Positions 1,786 to 16,500 of a stretch of 30,564 nt of DNA are shown here, piece after piece. Location of the stretch: IMG/VR virus record IMGVR_UViG_3300048011_000188, positions 1-30,564 of that record, one strand, 5' to 3'. This stretch comes from a virus. The notes under the pieces are model-generated. The model made no database searches. It saw only the letters and a program-made list of their open reading frames with translations, and had not been told where the DNA came from. Position 1 is the stretch's first letter, and the number at the start of each line of letters is the position of its first letter. The position numbers and the translations under genes were made by a program.

Positions 1786-2087
1786 TGTTTGATTTACTAA
1801 AAGAATATACAGTTTCGGATTATCTTCTTTTCCAAGAGGATAGTTTGAAAGGAAGCGAGTACGGTGGTGAAGTTGAATTTGATAATGGATATGGACTATC
1901 TGTTGTTCGTCACGAATCTTCGTACGGCGGCAAACAGGGTCTATTTGAGGTCATGCTGACTCGTAATGGTAATCCCTACTCGCTTCCACCTATTACTAAT
2001 GAGTATGATACTGTCAAAGGTTTCCTCACAAAAGAACAAGTGAATGAACTCCTAGAAACGGTTTCGGAAATGCCTGCAACAGTTTAA
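1785..2087 (+). CDS. Hypothetical protein (100 aa)
   Basis: I start it at 1785, where ATG shares a base with the preceding stop (TAATG at 1783-1787); an ATG nine bases upstream is possible. The 100-residue product is soluble and contains YGLSVVRHESSYGGKQGLFE followed by a GFLTKEQVNELLETV segment, a pattern I recall from small conserved hypothetical proteins of marine T4-like phages. It may be an alpha/beta domain with a C-terminal helix. Coupled translation with the exported protein suggests they share a transcript from the promoter at 1464-1491. Function unknown. Confidence 0.7.
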   Translation: MFDLLKEYTVSDYLLFQEDSLKGSEYGGEVEFDNGYGLSVVRHESSYGGKQGLFEVMLTRNGNPYSLPPITNEYDTVKGFLTKEQVNELLETVSEMPATV

Positions 2088-2120
2088 TGATAATCATTAC
2101 ATCATAACCGTTCTCAATTC

Positions 2121-2128
2121 TATAAGTA
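2121..2128 (+). promoter_or_regulatory. Possible T4-type late promoter, one mismatch (TATAAGTA)
   Basis: TATAAGTA differs at one base from the late box TATAAATA. It ends 19 bases before the pqqA-like start, within the 17-25 base range of the four exact late boxes in this window. No convincing -35 box lies at the right distance, so host sigma-70 use is less likely. Confidence 0.4.
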
Positions 2129-2147
2129 TATACAAGGAGGCCTTACT

Positions 2148-2222
2148 ATGAAATGGACTACACCTAGTTATACAGAAATGAGATTTGGATTTGAAGTAAC
2201 GATGTACATACTCAACAAATAA
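2148..2222 (+). CDS. pqqA: PqqA-like PQQ precursor peptide (24 aa)
   Basis: A 24-codon gene. It is read from ATG 2148 to TAA 2220-2222, with a perfect Shine-Dalgarno AAGGAGG at 2134-2140 and 7-base spacing. The peptide begins MKWTTP and contains GFEVTMY. PqqA peptides of methylotrophs and other PQQ producers are 20-30 residues, commonly start MKW or MW, and carry the invariant Glu-x-x-x-Tyr pair. That pair is crosslinked by the radical SAM enzyme PqqE (with PqqD) to make the PQQ backbone. Here the pair is E16 and Y20 (EVTMY). No pqqB, C, D, E or F is present in the window, so the peptide is an orphan that would depend on host enzymes. The strong ribosome binding site argues for high expression. 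A chance match is unlikely, given start, length, motif and ribosome binding site together. Confidence 0.85.
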   Translation: MKWTTPSYTEMRFGFEVTMYILNK

Positions 2223-2242
2223 ATTTCTCTCTCTCTCGACTG

Positions 2243-2282
2243 ACCCCTTTACGGTATAAATACTGTAAAGGGGTTTTCTTTT
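2243..2282 (+). terminator. Strong rho-independent terminator after pqqA
   Basis: A perfect 10-bp stem: ACCCCTTTAC at 2243-2252 pairs with GTAAAGGGGT at 2265-2274. It can be extended by a G-T pair and by GTAT/ATAC inside the 12-base loop. The T-rich tail TTTTCTTTT (2274-2282) runs directly into the ATG of the gp5-like gene at 2283. It separates the early small-gene block and pqqA from the late structural genes. A CT-rich stretch (2227-2238) precedes it. Confidence 0.85.
2255..2262 (+). promoter_or_regulatory. T4-type late promoter inside the terminator loop (TATAAATA)
   Basis: An exact match to the T4 late promoter box, which in T4 is recognised by the gp55 sigma factor with the gp45 clamp. 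It sits entirely in the loop of the terminator hairpin and ends 20 bases before the gp5-like ATG, so transcription should start near 2268. It is the first late promoter of the structural region. Confidence 0.75.
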
Positions 2283-3560
2283 ATGGCGAATAATATGTTA
2301 TCTTACTTTATGGGGCGTGATGGTTTCCAATGGTTTATCGGTGTCTGCGAGGACAGAGATGATCCAAAGGCGTTGGGGCGTATTCGTGTGCGGTGCTTTG
2401 GTTATCACACAGAGGACTTGCAAAAGATACCCACACAATCCCTACCTTGGGCGCACGTTATCATGCCACCTACCGCACAGGTTGGTGCATTCCACAATAT
2501 TAAACCAGGCGATTGGGTATTTGGTTTCTGGCGTGATCCAGACTATATGCAAGAACCTGTTATCATGGGCATCATGCCCGGCATCCCTGCCAATGAGGTT
2601 GACGCAACAAAAGGATTCAACGACCCTAACTCACCCGATGCTCCAGACACACAAGATGAGAAGTATAAGAAAGATCCAGACTTTGGGCCTTACCCAATAA
2701 AAGATTTGGTCGGTAAAGCAGATACGTCACGATTGACTTCTGGTTTACTTGATGCTCATCCAGAGATTGAAGCAAGAGACAAAGAGGTTACGGAAGATGT
2801 TCCTACCGCAAACCAGAAAAAGATTTTAGGTGATGCAGACTTCACGGTTGATGTCGCATCCAACTGGACTGACAAGTTAGCAACCAACACAGACTTTACT
2901 GCAACGTCTTGGAAAGAACCAAAGACTACGGATGACTCCATTCGTGGTGAAGATGCCTCAGGTAAAAATCCTGAGACACAAGAAGATAGAGTTCCCCCAT
3001 ACAAAAGACGGAACACGGAGTATCCATACAATCATGTTCTTGAAACAGAGAGCGGACACATACAGGAGTTTGATGATACACCTTTTGCGGAACGTATCTA
3101 TGAGAAGCATAGAAGTGGAACGTACTATGAGATTGACGCTGACGGAAACAAGGTAACACGAGTTGTTGGACAGAACTATCATATTATTGCTGGTAGTAAC
3201 TTTGTAAATATCAAGGGTGACGTAAACCTTACGATTGATTCAAACTGCAAGACTTATATCAAAGGTGATTGGGATATTCAAGTTGACGGCAACAAGACGG
3301 AAGTTGTCAAGAAGAATGTTACGGAAACATATGGAACAGAGAACACAGAACATTCTCATACGGTAAGCGTAACAGGTAAGAGAGCAGAGACAGTAACTAA
3401 TACTGTTACGGAAACATATCAAGATGCAAAGACGGAAGAAGTCACTGGACTTGTTTCCGAAACATATAAAGCAAATCAAACAACAAACATAACAGGTACA
3501 CTGGACTTGGATGCATCCGTAGAAATAGATGCTGACGCTGGTGTAATTAATTTGAACTAG
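2283..3560 (+). CDS. 5: gp5-like baseplate central spike protein, without lysozyme domain (425 aa)
   Basis: Central needle of the contractile tail, which punctures the outer membrane. Residues about 14-100 look like the N-terminal OB-fold of gp5/VgrG proteins (FIGVCEDRDDPKALGRIRVR; IKPGDWVFGFW). Residues about 246-300 match the gp5/VgrG segment leading into the spike (YPYNHVLETESGHIQEFDDT). From about 305 on there are short beta-helix repeats (NIKGDVNLTI; DIQVDGNKTE), with VTETY/VSETY recurring at about 346, 375 and 391. Between the domains lies a 140-residue Asp/Lys/Thr-rich linker in place of the T4 lysozyme domain; no lysozyme motif is seen. The next gene codes the PAAR tip. The only Shine-Dalgarno-like sequence, AAAGGGG (2267-2273), is inside the terminator stem. 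Confidence 0.85.
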   Translation: MANNMLSYFMGRDGFQWFIGVCEDRDDPKALGRIRVRCFGYHTEDLQKIPTQSLPWAHVIMPPTAQVGAFHNIKPGDWVFGFWRDPDYMQEPVIMGIMPGIPANEVDATKGFNDPNSPDAPDTQDEKYKKDPDFGPYPIKDLVGKADTSRLTSGLLDAHPEIEARDKEVTEDVPTANQKKILGDADFTVDVASNWTDKLATNTDFTATSWKEPKTTDDSIRGEDASGKNPETQEDRVPPYKRRNTEYPYNHVLETESGHIQEFDDTPFAERIYEKHRSGTYYEIDADGNKVTRVVGQNYHIIAGSNFVNIKGDVNLTIDSNCKTYIKGDWDIQVDGNKTEVVKKNVTETYGTENTEHSHTVSVTGKRAETVTNTVTETYQDAKTEEVTGLVSETYKANQTTNITGTLDLDASVEIDADAGVINLN

Positions 3561-4315: not shown

Positions 4316-4759
4316 ATGGCAGCAAACCCTACAGCATATAGAGATGCAGAAGCAACTAATGATTCTGATAGAAGTGCTCAGATATATAAAGATATAAATC
4401 TGAACTTCACCAGACATCCTATTACTGGCGACATTAGTAAGTTATCTAATGTTGAAGCAGTTAAGCGTAGTGTTCGGAATCTTGTAAATACAAATTTCTA
4501 TGAGCGTCCATTTCATCCAGAGATTGGTTCTGATGTAAGAGCAATTCTTTTTGAACCTGTAACATCTTTGGTGGCAGACGTTCTCAAAAGATATGTTGAG
4601 GATGTCATTAATAACTTTGAACCAAGGGCAGAACTTACTGATGTAAAGGTTAATGCTCAGATTGACAGAAACGCATATGAGGTACAGGTAGAATTTTATC
4701 TGGTTAACTCACCTAGTGGTTTGCAAACTGTAGATTTATTTTTAGAAGGTTTGAGATAA
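4316..4759 (+). CDS. 25: gp25-like baseplate wedge protein (147 aa)
   Basis: GPW/gp25 family. In T4, gp25 joins the wedge core and starts sheath polymerisation, and it is homologous to TssE of type VI secretion. The family pattern is visible: DINLNFTRHPITGDI near residue 27, NLVNTNFYERPFHPEIGSDV (56-75), and the conserved EPR motif in NFEPRAEL (about 95-102). At 147 residues it is slightly longer than T4 gp25, with an N-terminal extension. It is directly followed by gp6, the same gene pairing as in other T4-like phages. Confidence 0.9.
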   Translation: MAANPTAYRDAEATNDSDRSAQIYKDINLNFTRHPITGDISKLSNVEAVKRSVRNLVNTNFYERPFHPEIGSDVRAILFEPVTSLVADVLKRYVEDVINNFEPRAELTDVKVNAQIDRNAYEVQVEFYLVNSPSGLQTVDLFLEGLR

Positions 4760-4768
4760 GGAACTAAC

Positions 4769-6604
4769 ATGGCAACAAAACTACAAGTCACAGAGTTGGA
4801 CTTTGATGATATCAAAACCAATCTAAAGACATATATGAAGAATCAATCGGAGTTCTCTGATTATAACTTTGAAGGTTCTGGACTTTCAACACTCATTGAT
4901 GTTCTTGCGTACAACACTCATTACTTGGGTATGAATGCAAACATGGCAATCAACGAAGCATATTTGGATACTGCAACTCTTCGTTCTTCTGTTGTATCTC
5001 ATGCAAAGACTTTGGGTTATACTCCACGTTCTGCTCGTTCACCTATTGCTTACATTGATGTTACAATCAATAACTCAACTCTTACTTCTATCACAGTTGC
5101 CAAAGGAACTAAGTTTACTACACAGATTGATGATACAACATATTCTTTTGTTGTCAACGAAACTCAAACCGTAACGCCAATTAATGGTGTTCTTAGATTT
5201 TCTAATCTTGCTATCTATGAGGGCACACTTGTTACTGCAAAGTATACAGTTGATAATAATAATCTTGAAAAGAAATATATGGTGACTGATGTTCGTGCAG
5301 ACACAACCACACTAAAGGTATCTGTTCAGAACTCAGCGTCTGATGCAACCACACAAGTCTATACTCTTGCAACTGACATCTCTCAGGTGACTGCAACTTC
5401 TAATGTTTACTTCTTACAAGAAGTCGATGACGGAAAGTTTGAGGTTTACTTTGGTGATGACGTAGTGGGCAAGAAAGTAAACGATGGTAACATTGTGATT
5501 CTAGAATACGTTGTCACAAACAAAGGTGCAGCGAATAACGCAAAAGTTTTCTCAGGAACTTCGGTTGGTGGGGAAACAAACATTACTATCGCAACGGTAT
5601 CTGCTGCCGCTGGTGGCGCAGAACCAGAAACTATTCAGTCCATCAAATACAATGCTCCCTTGGACTATGCATCACAAGGTAGAGCAGTTACGACTGATGA
5701 CTACAAGGTTATCATTCCACAAGTTTATGCAGACACGAAAGCAATTCAAGTGTGGGGTGGAGAAGATAACGATCCACCAATCTATGGACAGGTATTCGTT
5801 TCTATCAAAACAACATCAGGGGTAAACCTGACACAAGCACAAAAAGATACAATCGCAACTTCACTGGACAAATACAATGTCGCTTCGGTTCGTCCAACTA
5901 TTGTCGATCCAGAAATCACAAAGATTAAGATGACAACCAACTTTAAGTTTGATGCCAATGTCACTACAAAGACTGCAACAGATTTAGAGACACTTGTTCG
6001 TACAACAGTATCTAACTACAACTCCTCAGACTTAGAAAAGTTTGATGGTGTGTTTAGATTCTCAAAGATGTCTCGCTTGATTGACGGAACAGACCCTTCT
6101 ATTCTTTCAAACATCACAACAATCAAGATGCAGAAAACAATCGTACCTCAACTTAACACGTTGGCAAAATATGAACTGAAGTTTTCTAACGCATTATATA
6201 ATCCTCACAGTGGACATAACTCTGCAATGGGTGGTATTACAAGTTCAACTGGTTTTACTATTGCTGGTGAATCAGGCGAACACTTTATAGATGATGATGG
6301 TGCTGGTAATCTAAGAGCGTATTCTCTTGTTGGTGGAACAACCAGAACATACCTCGGCACAAACATTGGTACTATTGATTATGCAACAGGACTATTGACA
6401 CTAAGTTCAATCAACATTACAGGTTCAACCGAAACTGCTGGTATCACGGTTACAACTACACCAAGTTCAAATGATATTGTTCCAGTTCGGAATCAGTTGC
6501 TAGAGATTGATCTTACAACTCTAAAGATTACTGGTAACAATGATACAATCGAGTCGGGTGGTTCATCTGCTGGAACTGGTTACACAACATCATCCTCTTA
6601 TTAA
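4769..6604 (+). CDS. 6: gp6-like baseplate wedge protein (611 aa)
   Basis: Baseplate J-like protein; T4 gp6 forms the inner ring that links wedges around the hub. The N-terminus ELDFDDIKTNLKTYMKNQSE and then FEGSGLSTLIDVLAYNTHYL (about 35-54) is the hallmark of marine T4-like gp6. VVSHAKTLGYTPRSARSP follows near residue 75. The J-like core includes the DYASQGRAVTTDDYKVIIPQ segment (about 300-320). The length of 611 is close to T4 gp6 (660). The C-terminal 120 residues are low-complexity Ser/Thr/Gly and may be a phage-specific extension. The gene starts nine bases after gp25. Confidence 0.9.
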   Translation: MATKLQVTELDFDDIKTNLKTYMKNQSEFSDYNFEGSGLSTLIDVLAYNTHYLGMNANMAINEAYLDTATLRSSVVSHAKTLGYTPRSARSPIAYIDVTINNSTLTSITVAKGTKFTTQIDDTTYSFVVNETQTVTPINGVLRFSNLAIYEGTLVTAKYTVDNNNLEKKYMVTDVRADTTTLKVSVQNSASDATTQVYTLATDISQVTATSNVYFLQEVDDGKFEVYFGDDVVGKKVNDGNIVILEYVVTNKGAANNAKVFSGTSVGGETNITIATVSAAAGGAEPETIQSIKYNAPLDYASQGRAVTTDDYKVIIPQVYADTKAIQVWGGEDNDPPIYGQVFVSIKTTSGVNLTQAQKDTIATSLDKYNVASVRPTIVDPEITKIKMTTNFKFDANVTTKTATDLETLVRTTVSNYNSSDLEKFDGVFRFSKMSRLIDGTDPSILSNITTIKMQKTIVPQLNTLAKYELKFSNALYNPHSGHNSAMGGITSSTGFTIAGESGEHFIDDDGAGNLRAYSLVGGTTRTYLGTNIGTIDYATGLLTLSSINITGSTETAGITVTTTPSSNDIVPVRNQLLEIDLTTLKITGNNDTIESGGSSAGTGYTTSSSY

Positions 6605-6615
6605 GGTTTTAATAA

Positions 6616-9357
6616 ATGTCTGCACAAGACCCTACATTAAAGAATAAAGTATCGCCGCACATTCAAACTCAACTTCCAGAGTTTGTGCAATCCGATCATC
6701 CTTTATTCTCACTCTTCCTCAAGTACTACTATGAGTTTCTTGAAGCGGGGGAACTTGTTGTTACAGGAACAAACAACTATGTGATTGAAGAAACAATCAC
6801 AAATAACTATGTCCTTGACGAAACTGGCGAGAACATTGTCCTTGAAGATTCTGTTGGCAAGTTTACTGTGGGTGAAACTATTACAGGTGCAACCTCTGGT
6901 GCAACTGCTCGTATTCTTGTTGATGACTTCGATGATAACAAAAGACTATTCATTACATCCCAACAAAGATTTGAAACTGGTGAAACAGTAACAGGCAACT
7001 CTTCTGGTGCAACAACAACCGTTGCATCCTATCGTGCAAACCCTGTACAGAACATTCAACAACTTCTTGCATATGCAGATGTTGACAATACAGTATATGC
7101 TTTCCTTGACAAGTTTAGAGATTCCTTTATGGAGTCTTTACCAAACACTCTTGCAGATGGTATTGCAAAACGTAAACTCATTAAGAACATCAAGGATATG
7201 TACACTGCAAAGGGTACACGAGATGGACACAAGTTGTTCTTCCGTATTCTCTTTGATGAAGAAGCGACACTCATTTATCCAAGAGATAATATGCTTCGTG
7301 TATCTGATGGTGCGTGGAGTACAGATAAAGTTATTCGTATCATTGAAAGTGGTACGTCTGATTTCACCAAAGCGATTGGACAAACACTAACAGGTTCGAC
7401 ATCTGGTGCTACTGCTCTGATTGCAACAGTCATTAAGTTTAGAGAAGGCGCCAATCTTATTGCAGAGATTAACCTTGATGCAAACTCTGTATCAGGAACA
7501 TTCACTGCTGGTGAACTTGTTACCACAACAGACACAACACTTGACTTAGAAATCTCAGGTGTAGTTAAGGGAATACTTATTGGCGGTAATGTTGATCTTG
7601 GTGGTGCTTACTATGAGACAGGAGATGTCACAACAGTAACAGGTGGAGGCGGTAATGATGCTGCAACCGCTCGTGTTGAATCTGCTGGTGCTGGTTCGAT
7701 TGATGAGATTGTTATTGAGAACGCTGGTACTGGTTATACCGCTGGTGAAGAACTTCGTTTTGATTTAACAAACACAGAAGGAACTGATGTTCGTGCAAAG
7801 ATTGCTGTTATTGGTGGTGGATTTCTTTTAGAACAATCAACCTCACCAGATAACATCATCACTGAAGATGGTGACTTGATTGTTACTGATGATGACATTC
7901 AGTATATCAGCAAGGAAACAACAGTCGGTGAACTTGACCATCTTGTCATGGAAGATGGTGGACAGATTGTTATAGAGACTGCAACCTTTGGTAATGCGCC
8001 CGGCAGTAATGCAAATGAACGTGGGCAAATTACAAAGATTGAAATGATTAACAAGGGTAATGGTTTTATAAAACTTCCTCTTGTTCAAGACAGTGCAACA
8101 ACAACTGGTGCTGGTGCAAGTCTTTTTGCTGCATCAACTCAGACACCAATGGTTGGACACGTTTCTGGAATCTCTGTCACAAACTTTGGACTAGATTATA
8201 CATCAACCCCAACAATCACACTCAATAGAAATGTTTTGGTGAAGAATGTATCAGGTTCTTTTGCTGCTGGTGATACGCTTACAAGTCACGATGGAACAGT
8301 TGTAGACTTTGACAATGCAAGAAATATTATTGAAATAAAAACTTCTGTTACCTTTAATCAAGATGATACGATAACATCTATCACTGGTGCAACTGCTACA
8401 GTACATCAATCAACACCAGCAAAAGCATCTTCTAATATTGGAACAGTCGGAACAACTGTTGGGAACTTTGTAAACGATAGAGGTAAAGTCTCTGTTGATA
8501 CTATGCGAGTTCAAGACTCCTACTACTATCAAGACTATTCATATGTTGTTCGTATTGGACAATCAATCAATGAGTGGAGAGAAAGTGTAAGACGTTCTGT
8601 ACACCCTGCTGGTTGGAATGTATTCGGTGAGGTTTCGTTTGCGTCACAGGTTTCTGCAAGAATTCAAAACCCTGCCGCTGGTTCTGTTGGAGACAGTGCA
8701 TCGCCAGATACATTTACACCAGAACTTGCATCTACATTTACTAACTTGTTTACAACAATCTTTGGAAGAAGATTGGGTACACTCACAGATTCTACTAAGA
8801 GGGCGAATGGACATGAAGGTTCATCTTCAATTCTTCCAAACGGTAAGAGAGAAGTTACACTTGAGTCTGTAGTCACTGTTCGCATGGATGGGCCCACTCG
8901 TTTATCAGGTGGGGCGTTTGGATCTACTTTGAATCTGTTACCACAATATGCATTCTCTGTGCCCCCGACAGATACCTCGCAAGAGATACCACATTATCCA
9001 GGCATCTATAGAGTTGCCGAAAATAATCACGACAATCGTGCATACTTTAATATTGACCAGTTTGGACAGTTCCGTATTAATCAAGTATCTGACGGTAGTG
9101 GAAACATTCCTCAGACAGCATTCAGTACTAGAATCAGTGTACCGCCGCCAGGCGAGATACAGATTAGAACAAGTGGTGCTGGTTCAGTAAATGCATTTGA
9201 CAATAACTTTGTGACGTTTGATAACACAACTAATACTTTTGATGAGGAAGTTGATAGTGGAAACACAAGAACTGGAGCGGGTGCAGTATATACATCATTC
9301 GATGAAAATGCAATAACATTCGATTCATCATCAGATAAATTTGATACAGGTAGTTGA
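6616..9357 (+). CDS. Large baseplate structural protein, gp7 position (913 aa)
   Basis: Virion structural protein placed right after gp6, where T4 has gp7 (wedge, about 1030 residues). I cannot confirm homology to gp7 by reading alone. The N-terminus KVSPHIQTQLPEFVQSDHPL and the block ADGIAKRKLIKNIKDMYTAK (181-200) with LFFRILFDEEATLIYPRDN are recurrent in large marine myovirus structural proteins. Between them are repeats of the form GETITGxTSGATA (about 86, 122 and 257), which recur in the 2119-residue protein downstream. The C-terminus has FD repeats (FVTFDNTTNTFDEE; ITFDSSSDKFD). No catalytic motif is seen. Confidence 0.75.
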   Translation: MSAQDPTLKNKVSPHIQTQLPEFVQSDHPLFSLFLKYYYEFLEAGELVVTGTNNYVIEETITNNYVLDETGENIVLEDSVGKFTVGETITGATSGATARILVDDFDDNKRLFITSQQRFETGETVTGNSSGATTTVASYRANPVQNIQQLLAYADVDNTVYAFLDKFRDSFMESLPNTLADGIAKRKLIKNIKDMYTAKGTRDGHKLFFRILFDEEATLIYPRDNMLRVSDGAWSTDKVIRIIESGTSDFTKAIGQTLTGSTSGATALIATVIKFREGANLIAEINLDANSVSGTFTAGELVTTTDTTLDLEISGVVKGILIGGNVDLGGAYYETGDVTTVTGGGGNDAATARVESAGAGSIDEIVIENAGTGYTAGEELRFDLTNTEGTDVRAKIAVIGGGFLLEQSTSPDNIITEDGDLIVTDDDIQYISKETTVGELDHLVMEDGGQIVIETATFGNAPGSNANERGQITKIEMINKGNGFIKLPLVQDSATTTGAGASLFAASTQTPMVGHVSGISVTNFGLDYTSTPTITLNRNVLVKNVSGSFAAGDTLTSHDGTVVDFDNARNIIEIKTSVTFNQDDTITSITGATATVHQSTPAKASSNIGTVGTTVGNFVNDRGKVSVDTMRVQDSYYYQDYSYVVRIGQSINEWRESVRRSVHPAGWNVFGEVSFASQVSARIQNPAAGSVGDSASPDTFTPELASTFTNLFTTIFGRRLGTLTDSTKRANGHEGSSSILPNGKREVTLESVVTVRMDGPTRLSGGAFGSTLNLLPQYAFSVPPTDTSQEIPHYPGIYRVAENNHDNRAYFNIDQFGQFRINQVSDGSGNIPQTAFSTRISVPPPGEIQIRTSGAGSVNAFDNNFVTFDNTTNTFDEEVDSGNTRTGAGAVYTSFDENAITFDSSSDKFDTGS

Positions 9358-9365
9358 TAAAGTCT

Positions 9366-9373
9366 TATAAATA
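9366..9373 (+). promoter_or_regulatory. T4-type late promoter (TATAAATA)
   Basis: Exact late box ending 25 bases before the ATG at 9399, in a 41-base intergenic gap. The AGGAG ribosome binding site at 9387-9391 lies in the leader. It would start the fibre-gene transcript. Confidence 0.75.
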
Positions 9374-9398
9374 AAAGAAAGAATTTAGGAGAAACCGA

Positions 9399-10262
9399 AT
9401 GGCATATCAGGCACTAGGACTTGGAACGAACGCCAACGATGGAACAGGCGATGACCTTCGTACAGGTGGTGATAAAATTAATGACAACATTGTAGAAGTT
9501 TTCGCAAAAATTAATGGAGTTGCAACAAGCGCCATCTCAAACGGAACTGCTCTTACAGCAGATACGGTTGCTCTATTAACTGCAACACAGACAATGACTA
9601 ACAAGACATTGACTACACCCACACTTACATCGCCAGTTATTAATGGTACTGTTGCTTCTGCAACAATCACTGCACTTACTACTGAAGGTATTCAGAATGC
9701 AACTGGTGAACTAGAAATCACCGCTCAAAACCAAGTAGTAGAGATTCAAGGTGGTGGTTCAAACTCAGGTGCAATCACACTGAACTGTGAACAGAATTCA
9801 CACGGACAAAAGATTATCGCACAACCACATAGTGCTGGTGTAACAAACACACTGACACTTCCTGCTGGTGGTAATGGTGAACTTGTAAGTACAGTTGCAA
9901 CTCAAACACTTACTAACAAGACATTGACTGCACCTACTATTACTGGTGCCGGTGCAATCGCTGGTGTGTTCACTGGTAACATCACTGGTAACGTAACTGG
10001 TAATGTGACAGGAAACGTAACTGGTAACGTAACTGGAACAGTTGACGGTGTTGTTGGTGGTAACACTCCTGCCGCAGTTACAGGTACAGCAATTAGTGGA
10101 ACATCCATTACTGTTACTGGTACTGCTAATGCACTGAAAGTAAACACAGTAACAACAACTCAACGTAATGCGTTGACTGCTGCTGTTGGAATGATAGTAT
10201 ACAATAGTACTACAAGTAAAATCGAAGCATACGCTGGTAGTGCTTGGGTTGCATTACATTAA
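9399..10262 (+). CDS. Fibre-like structural protein with NKTLT and GNVT repeats (287 aa)
   Basis: Tail fibre-like protein. The N-terminus (LGLGTNANDGTGDDLRTGGD, then INDNIVEVFAKIN) is a common attachment motif in phage structural proteins. Two copies of an ATQTxTNKTLTxPT repeat (residues 62-75 and 167-180) are typical of trimeric fibres. A run of five GNxT units (about 193-212) is coded by 12-base tandem repeats and is likely an extended shaft. The C-terminal RNALTAAVGMIVYNSTTSKI followed by AYAGSAWV is a small cap module that also appears in the protein at 21712. Adhesin or fibre function is inferred from composition and repeats; no receptor can be named. Confidence 0.7.
   Translation: MAYQALGLGTNANDGTGDDLRTGGDKINDNIVEVFAKINGVATSAISNGTALTADTVALLTATQTMTNKTLTTPTLTSPVINGTVASATITALTTEGIQNATGELEITAQNQVVEIQGGGSNSGAITLNCEQNSHGQKIIAQPHSAGVTNTLTLPAGGNGELVSTVATQTLTNKTLTAPTITGAGAIAGVFTGNITGNVTGNVTGNVTGNVTGTVDGVVGGNTPAAVTGTAISGTSITVTGTANALKVNTVTTTQRNALTAAVGMIVYNSTTSKIEAYAGSAWVALH
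9975..10034 (+). repeat. Five tandem 12-bp repeats coding (G-N-x-T)n
   Basis: Units GGTAACATCACT, GGTAACGTAACT, GGTAATGTGACA, GGAAACGTAACT and GGTAACGTAACT follow each other without gaps inside the fibre gene. Silent differences show that selection keeps the peptide repeat while the bases drift. The tract can change length by slippage or recombination. Confidence 0.85.
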
Positions 10263-13509: not shown

Positions 13510-16500
13510 ATGGAAAAAACCAATCTCAATGTGTCACCATACTATGATGACTTTGCAGAGAGCAAAGACTTTCATAGGGTTCTCTTTCGTCCAGGCTTTG
13601 CCGTACAAGCAAGAGAACTAACCCAACTTCAGTCTATTCTTCAAAACCAAGTAGAGAAACATGGACGCCATGTTTTCAAAGAAGGTACAGTGGTTATCCC
13701 TGGCGCCGTTGGTTTTACTGATGAGTTCTATGCTGTCAAGTTAGATTCGACACTGAGTGGTGCAGACATCTCATCTCAAATCCAAGACTATGTTGGAAAG
13801 AGAATCACTGGTACAACCAGTGGTGTCGTTGCAGAGGTAATCAAAGCTGACGCTGCAACAACTGATGATCCTATTACACTTTATGTAAAGTATATTAGAA
13901 CTGGTACGAATAATGTTACTACCGTTTTTGCAAACGGTGAAAGAATTTCTGCAAATGGAACAGTTGGTTCGTTTGGTTCTGGTGTAGACTCTGCACAACT
14001 GAATGCTACAAACGCAACTGCAATTGGTTCTGCTGCAAATATTGAAGAGGGTGTTTACTTTATTCGTGGACACTTCGTAAGAGTTGCTGAACAAAGAATT
14101 GTACTAGACAAATATACCAACACACCATCTTATCGTGTTGGACTTACAATTACGGAGTCTCTTGAAACACCAGAAGAAGATAGTTCTCTTTTGGATAATG
14201 CACAAGGAACTTCTAACGTAAACGCAAAGGGCGCTCACAGACTCAAGTTCACATTAACACTTTCCAAACTTTCCCTTACATCTACTGAAGATGATAACTT
14301 TGTAGAACTTATTCGTGTAGATCAAGGTGTGCTTCAAGTAAAGGCAAGAAACACAGAGTATTCTGTACTAGGTGAAACTCTTGCAAGAAGAACACATGAC
14401 GAATCTGGTGATTATACTGTTCGTGACTTTCAGTTTGATATTCGTGAGGCAGCAGACGATGGACTTAACAATGGTATCTATCCTCTAAACGCAACAACTG
14501 ATGACGGTGGTACTGCAACCGATGACTTGATGTCAATACAAGTATCGCCTGGCAAAGCATATGTTCGTGGATACGAAATTGAAACTATTGCACCAAGATA
14601 TATTGATATTCCTAAACCTAGAACTTTTGAAAACTACAATGGTTCTATTACTCCTGTTGAGGTTGGTAACTTTGTACAGGTAGATAAGGTTCATGGTGCG
14701 CCTGAACTTTCACCACAGATTGCTGGTGAGATTGTAGAACCATACAGACTTGTATCTTTAAGAGATACAAAGACTGCAACTCGTGGAACACCTGCTGGTG
14801 CTCACATTGGTTTCGCTCGTGCTCGTGCATTTGAACACTCTGAAGGTAGTACTGGTAGTGGTGTTCCTCTAACGGCATCTGGTTCTCTTACAACTTCAAA
14901 GTATAAACTATATATCTTCGACATTCGTATGTTCACAGACCTCACAATGTCTGCTGCTCCTTCTGCTCTCGTAACAGGTGCAAAGATTACTGGTGTCAAC
15001 TCTGGTGCATATGGTTATGTAACTTCTGCTTCAAGTTCAACTAAGATTGCACTTGGTTCTGTTGTGGGAACATTTACTCCTGGCGAGAAAATCACTTCAA
15101 CATCTTCAGCAGAAACAGACAAGATTGTTGAGAATAGTTCTAATGCAGATATTACTATTAGTGCAATAACATCTCATGCATTTGATGCTGTTAAACAAAT
15201 CTCAATGGACGATCCCGATACAGGTGACGCAGACTTTACAGCAGATACAATTCTAAATTCAAATGTATCACTTACTGGACTTGTAACATATGGTGGTTCG
15301 GGCACAGTAATCAACGGTTTCCAAACTGACTTTACTAACGAACTTCGTGTTGGTGATATTGTCGCTTTCCCTTCAGGCTCTGCTGGTGCCTTGGAAGAAA
15401 GAAAGGTTACAGCGGTAACAAACTCAACCACAATTTCAATTTCTGCTACTCTAAGTAATGGTATCACTTCAGTTTCTGCTACTAGAAAACGTGTGACAAT
15501 CACAGATCAAAACAGAAATATTCTTCTTCGTAAACTTCAGAAGAATGGAATCAAAACTCTCAAGACAGAGGGTAATGGTGGAATTTCAGATTCATCTGTT
15601 ATTATCAGAAGGTCATTTGCTGGTACTTCAAACAGTTCTGGTGTTGTGACTTTCAGTGCTAGTTCTAACGAAACATTCAATGCAGTATCAAATACTGACT
15701 TTGTTCTTATGGTTTCAGATGCTGGTTCTGGTTCTGGTGCTAATGGTGACATCATCAATCTAAATGGTAGTGGAGTTACTCTTAGTGGATTTGGTACAAA
15801 TGCTATTTCAATTACTGCTGCTAGTATTTTGGGTAACGGTGCAAAGGTAAGACTTATTGCAACAATCACAAGAACGATTGTCAACGAGAAATCAAAAACA
15901 AGAAATAGAATGCATCAAGTTCTGGTAGATAACAGTGCTGTTGCTAACTACGGACAGTCAGCAATCCATAAAGATATTTCACTTGGTGTCGCTGATGTTC
16001 ATAAATTATATGCAGTATTCGACTCAGAAGATGCAAGTGCAAACCCAACACTTCCACAGTGGACAGTTACAGGTGCAAGTGGTTCATTCACAAAAGGTGA
16101 ATTGATTACTGGTGGAACTACTGGTGCAATTGCTCGTGTGATTAATCCTATCTCACCTGTAACTTTCATTCCAGTAAATGCTATCGCATTCTCTGCTGGA
16201 GAAACCATTACTGGTGCAGAAAGTTCAGCAACTGCTACACTAGATACATTCACTGCTGGTTCTCGTGACGTAACAAATGACTTTGTTATGGATACTGGAC
16301 AAAGAGATAACTTCTATGATATTGGTAGACTAGTTCGCAAAGCATCTGCTATTGCTCCAACTGGTAGACTTCTTATTGTATTCGATTACTTCGATCACGG
16401 TTCTGGTGACTTCTTTACTGTTGACTCTTACAGTTCAATTAACTATAAAGATATTCCAATCTATACCGCTACTCGTGTTGATCCAGAGGTTGCAGAACCT

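Follow-up and report, generated by a model that had tools for sequence, protein, structure and literature searches.

A solitary pqqA gene in a T4-like phage fragment may feed PQQ synthesis in methylotrophic hosts

Why would a virus encode the consumed peptide precursor of the cofactor PQQ without any of the enzymes that convert it? The window, meaning the whole stretch of DNA analysed, is an entire virus record of 30,564 bp and itself a genome fragment. Within it, a 24-codon (75 bp) open reading frame (2148..2222, +) runs from an ATG at 2148 to a TAA stop at 2220-2222 and encodes a 24-aa PqqA, the PQQ precursor peptide MKWTTPSYTEMRFGFEVTMYILNK, in which E16 and Y20 form a Glu-x-x-x-Tyr pair within a G-x-E-[VI]-T-x-Y core. 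The Pfam PqqA model PF08042 matched this frame at 42.7 bits in a genome search and 44.7 bits in a protein scan (cut-off 21.1 bits), and the NCBIfam model TIGR02107 at 47.4 bits (E 1.2e-12; cut-off 20 bits). As measures of sequence similarity, these scores far exceed chance, and a length of 24 aa with its own start and ribosome binding site (RBS) lies within the PqqA norm of about 22-29 aa; PHROGs returned no family for the peptide. The first-pass annotation had described a 24-codon frame with E16, Y20 and a perfect AAGGAGG, all of which we recovered from the sequence, and had proposed a comparison with PqqA profiles, in which both models now score above cut-off. Of the interval it gave for the gene, 2134-2222, the end stands and the start does not, since 2134 is the first base of AAGGAGG and the ATG lies at 2148.

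Sequence comparison places the window, a genome fragment, among the T4-like phages (Kyanoviridae, Melnitz group). Small phage ORFs lie 5' of pqqA together with a MazG-like gene, and on its 3' side we observed a gp5-like baseplate hub/OB domain protein (2283..3560, +), a PAAR protein, a Staphylococcal-nuclease-like protein and the baseplate wedge proteins gp25 (4316..4759, +; a T4-like context) and gp6 (4769..6604, +), so that virus genes flank pqqA on both sides, as expected for a phage auxiliary metabolic gene. The closest GenBank relative is the OM43 phage Melnitz, followed by the pelagiphages Mosig and HTVC008M; gp6 is 73% identical to that of Melnitz and 53% to that of Mosig, and DNA matches to Melnitz cover 44% of 20 kb. 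Melnitz (MZ577095, PMC9004378) is likewise T4-like and carries an unannotated pqqA at the equivalent site just 5' of gp5, preceded by an identical 21-nt promoter/RBS element; it differs in that a tRNA-Leu separates its pqqA from gp5 and in that its peptide is 71% identical. The annotation of Melnitz places an antisense ORF (14967-15062) over the real pqqA.

We then considered the signals around the gene. A Shine-Dalgarno AAGGAGG (2134..2140, +) stands 7 nt from the ATG and closes the shared element, CTATAAGTATATACAAGGAGG (2120..2140, +), whose upstream part resembles a T4 late promoter. Because CTATAAGTATATACAAGGAGG is shared with Melnitz and the T4 late promoter core TATAAATA is in excess in the window (5 occurrences versus 1.0 expected), it is plausible that this element acts as a late-type promoter for pqqA. 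An intrinsic terminator with a 15 bp stem follows the gene (2242..2275, +; -23.1 kcal/mol, z -7.1), and within its hairpin a copy of TATAAATA (2255..2262, +) is a putative late-type promoter of gp5. The same hairpin is found in relatives without pqqA, and therefore the terminator predates the pqqA cassette. Elsewhere in the region, a perfect sigma-70 promoter (TTGACA-16-TATAAT) precedes a small secreted-looking protein, MKKILIAMMMIAGATNAHAFEF, at 1464-1785, and a perfect palindrome at 2085-2099, TAATGATAATCATTA, lies at the upstream cassette edge and looks like a partial Fur box, with similar palindromes in one further contig (L352) and in Melnitz. As a general feature of pqqA this Fur-box-like palindrome was rejected, being present in 4/127 viral loci.

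The cassette is labile. About 141 bp of the window (2087..2227, +) are missing from two related contigs, L356 and L348, which hold about 8 bp there and conserve both cassette flanks; L356 lacks window bases 2087-2227 with flanks 88-91% identical. A closely matched pair makes the same point, in which a 174-bp stretch in the pqqA-bearing L362 faces 14 bp in the pqqA-less L361, the two contigs being 99.0% identical across 5,154 bp on the downstream side and 98.3% identical across 664 bp on the upstream side. Among the T4-like relatives each pqqA found sits just 5' of gp5, 8/50 related contigs carry the gene, and several contigs with 87-99% identical flanks have none at this site, so it is not common to all close relatives; these pqqA-less relatives are contig fragments, and their absence applies to the gp5-adjacent site, with pqqA possible elsewhere in the genome. 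Because closely related phage contigs manage without pqqA at the site, we consider the gene non-essential.

It is also solitary. Neighbouring pqqB-E genes, usual for pqqA and not defining, are absent here: tblastn with PqqB, PqqC, PqqD and PqqE found none in the window, and neither the PqqE profile nor the PQQ dehydrogenase profile matched there, bearing out the earlier statement that the window holds no other pqq gene. The PqqB, C, D and E queries likewise found nothing in 127 viral pqqA loci, which span 1.18 Mb in addition to the window; in bacterial control loci the same queries hit 73, 62, 47 and 44 of 119. PqqE reached its cut-off in none of 44 virus records. A weak PqqE match in G025 (27.7 bits against a cut-off of 381) proved to be a different radical SAM protein. 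A full-length PQQ-dependent methanol/ethanol dehydrogenase (608 bits) was observed in 1/49 records, the pqqA-bearing 72-kb virus contig L506 (IMGVR_UViG_3300025120_009955), where it lies at 7989-9863; this contig also encodes proteins of phage families beside the dehydrogenase.

To gauge how far the gene extends among viruses, we searched 50,697 phage records and obtained 12 matches, 10 of them true phages: four Melnitz genomes, P19250A, Venkman, MEP301, MEP401, MEP402 and one spring podovirus. The named hosts are Methylophilales in 9/9 records, the tenth being the environmental podovirus from a spring, and pqqA is thus confined to methylotroph phages among isolates. The other two matches, both labelled Acinetobacter phages, were set aside as one mislabelled assembly; the one examined (L003, CAKLQF020000010.1, deposited as Acinetobacter phage MD-2021a) is in fact part of a bacterial chromosome and holds pqqABCDE together with mod and ent genes. 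The chromosomal pqqABCDE stretch of L003 was used as a control. Among T4-like relatives, the whole genomes of the SAR11 phages Mosig and HTVC008M and of cyanophage Syn1 contained no pqqA. In IMG/VR, at least 120 contigs carry pqqA in an open frame that is PqqA-like by eye; the search of viruses that the first-pass annotation had recommended thus returned both isolates and environmental contigs. Within the regions compared, Melnitz had no detectable proteins in common with the other pqqA-bearing isolates, which in turn had 0 to 8 ORFs in common with each other, and given this limited sharing we conclude that pqqA entered several phage types.

Viral pqqA is under purifying selection. The 115 distinct alleles collapse to 52 peptides, with pN/pS of 0.20 overall and 0.30 outside the search motif. 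Conservation of Glu and Tyr in our first viral set was circular, as the search motif contained both residues, and we therefore repeated the search with a motif ending before Glu; both residues were kept in 119/119 complete viral copies, and the residues between them vary (V/I, M/L). The expectation that related phages would keep E16 and Y20 is consequently borne out in part, in that all gene-bearing relatives keep them, and fails for the several relatives without the ORF at the site.

We next asked which hosts these peptides resemble. The viral C-terminus EVTMYVMNK gave 8 matches among 399 genomes of one order, six of them genomes of 1.3-1.4 Mb. In the matched family, 149 of 150 genomes have pqqA, with 1-12 copies in those that possess it and a mean of 4.2, and 140 of 150 have PqqE; a PQQ alcohol dehydrogenase scored above cut-off in 36/41, and hexulose-phosphate synthase was detected in 21/21. 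Methylophilaceae are described as having 3-12 pqqA copies and one pqqBCDE set (PMC4109929), and because the traits fit that description we infer that the matched family is Methylophilaceae. The PQQ pathway, whose absence from the host the first-pass annotation had named as a ground for refutation, is represented by PqqE in most genomes of the presumed host family. Viral peptides equal a host-family peptide in 42/127 cases and a peptide of other sampled bacteria in 0/127, an inexact contrast given that the two bacterial samples were drawn with different patterns. A genome pattern requiring Ile after Tyr misses the presumed host family. The window peptide itself is 2 changes from that of a non-Methylophilaceae Burkholderiales MAG versus 4 from the sampled host family. 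The host of the window phage is most likely a methylotroph, probably of the Methylophilales, judging from Melnitz. The families of G001 and G058 were rejected as the host family, having no viral-type C-terminus. In L194, L257 and the G001 family, a second bacterial family, pqqA occurs in pairs whose members lie on opposite strands with about 5 kb between them.

From these observations we favor, at a probability of roughly 0.7, a real and selected pqqA cassette by which a T4-like methylotroph phage feeds host PQQ synthesis and keeps methanol dehydrogenase loaded. One PqqA is spent for each PQQ made, and the pathway enzymes are reused. Because the peptide is consumed and the enzymes are not, a phage that damps host expression would need the substrate gene alone. 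PqqA is the PQQ precursor and carries a crosslink (PMC9851590); in the proposed sequence, phage PqqA would be made during infection, host PqqE and PqqD would crosslink it at E16-Y20, and host PqqF/G, PqqB and PqqC would trim the crosslinked peptide and complete PQQ. The 75 bp could then suffice to sustain PQQ flow after host gene expression falls, and the PQQ would load the XoxF/MxaF methanol dehydrogenase, supplying energy and formaldehyde for phage production. Expression, timing, processing and the effect on PQQ and burst in infection are all inferred, and PQQ shortage during infection is assumed, in hosts that already hold several pqqA copies; the use of phage PqqA by host enzymes fits all observations. 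A methylotroph fermentation strain has five pqqA copies, three of them apart from operons, and one detached copy is among its two most expressed (PMC9851590), which argues that solitary pqqA is in use in bacteria. The initial proposal of a genuine, partnerless phage PqqA holds up, and the known hosts of pqqA-bearing phages depend on PQQ methanol dehydrogenases. More broadly, the wide occurrence of solitary pqqA in viruses of methylotrophs suggests that viruses top up PQQ during infection.

Other readings account for parts of these data. A frame this short could resemble PqqA by chance, but the family match (E 3e-12 in the genome search) and the conserved position in Melnitz and other T4-like contigs rule this out. 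The gene might instead be a passenger, one of many dispersed host pqqA copies picked up and lost by chance without benefit, as its multiple copies in hosts and its presence/absence polymorphism at a single site would allow; we regard this as unlikely given a pN/pS of 0.30, an identical RBS in the window and Melnitz, the occurrence of pqqA in unrelated phage types and the fact that other pqq genes are never brought along.

If the peptide is selected, its effect could also run against the host pathway. The first-pass annotation had offered a decoy as one option, in which phage peptide occupies PqqD and PqqE, host PQQ falls and host alcohol oxidation is shut off, and a substrate made alone by the phage from a strong RBS would suit such a role. 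Viral PqqA nevertheless looks like a working substrate, since all 119 complete viral copies keep both crosslinked residues, a third of the peptides are identical to host peptides and one phage contig combines pqqA with its own PQQ dehydrogenase; we therefore disfavor the decoy as highly improbable. Released PQQ might alternatively block a PQQ-binding outer-membrane receptor and so exclude superinfection, and in E. coli PQQ does prevent infection by a phage that exploits PqqU, the PQQ importer (PMC12124388); methylophages show no sign of such receptor use, however, and a host able to synthesize PQQ has no need to take it up, leaving this explanation very unlikely. A wider claim, that solitary pqqA is a repeatedly acquired signature accessory gene of methylotroph phages at large and PQQ a contested resource, possibly also a receptor shield against rivals, is tentative and on balance doubtful.

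The preferred reading, provision of substrate to host PQQ synthesis, has parallels. Cyanophage psbA is a case in which the phage provides the fastest-turnover component of a host energy system. By analogy, pqqA may supply a fast-turnover part of methanol oxidation, with the difference that psbA encodes a protein subunit and pqqA a consumed cofactor precursor. As a kind of phage gene pqqA is not novel: in 2020 the presumed methylotroph phage VP_266 from Lake Baikal was reported to encode PqqA along with methanol dehydrogenase, and its PqqA was interpreted as an auxiliary metabolic gene (PMC7678222). L506 resembles VP_266 in having a PQQ methanol/ethanol dehydrogenase beside pqqA, whereas the 30.6-kb window has no PQQ enzyme and its pqqA sits in a T4-like Melnitz-group phage. 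Viral genes from reservoir sediment include pqqA, pqqE and pqqD (PMC13188868). The dispersed pqqA copies of Methylophilaceae belong to the same peptide family, are also solitary and serve as precursor for one enzyme set (PMC4109929), and a third of viral peptides equal those of this presumed host family; the viral copy differs in lying on a phage, among phage genes and under phage-type signals. By term searches we found no mention of phage pqqA in the Melnitz or MEP401/402 papers, the latter with an auxiliary gene list lacking pqqA, and reports in subscription journals are possible; the breadth of viral pqqA, its solitary state and its presence in already sequenced isolates appear to be new.

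The gene is mostly unannotated in the cultured isolates Melnitz, Venkman, MEP301, MEP401/402 and P19250A, and its role is therefore testable at once. Gene callers overlook accessory genes for modified peptides, and a phage may provide a RiPP-type cofactor pathway with its consumed substrate and nothing else. In coastal seas, OM43-type methylotrophs connect methanol from algae to CO2, and a 75-bp phage gene may sustain their methanol oxidation during infection.
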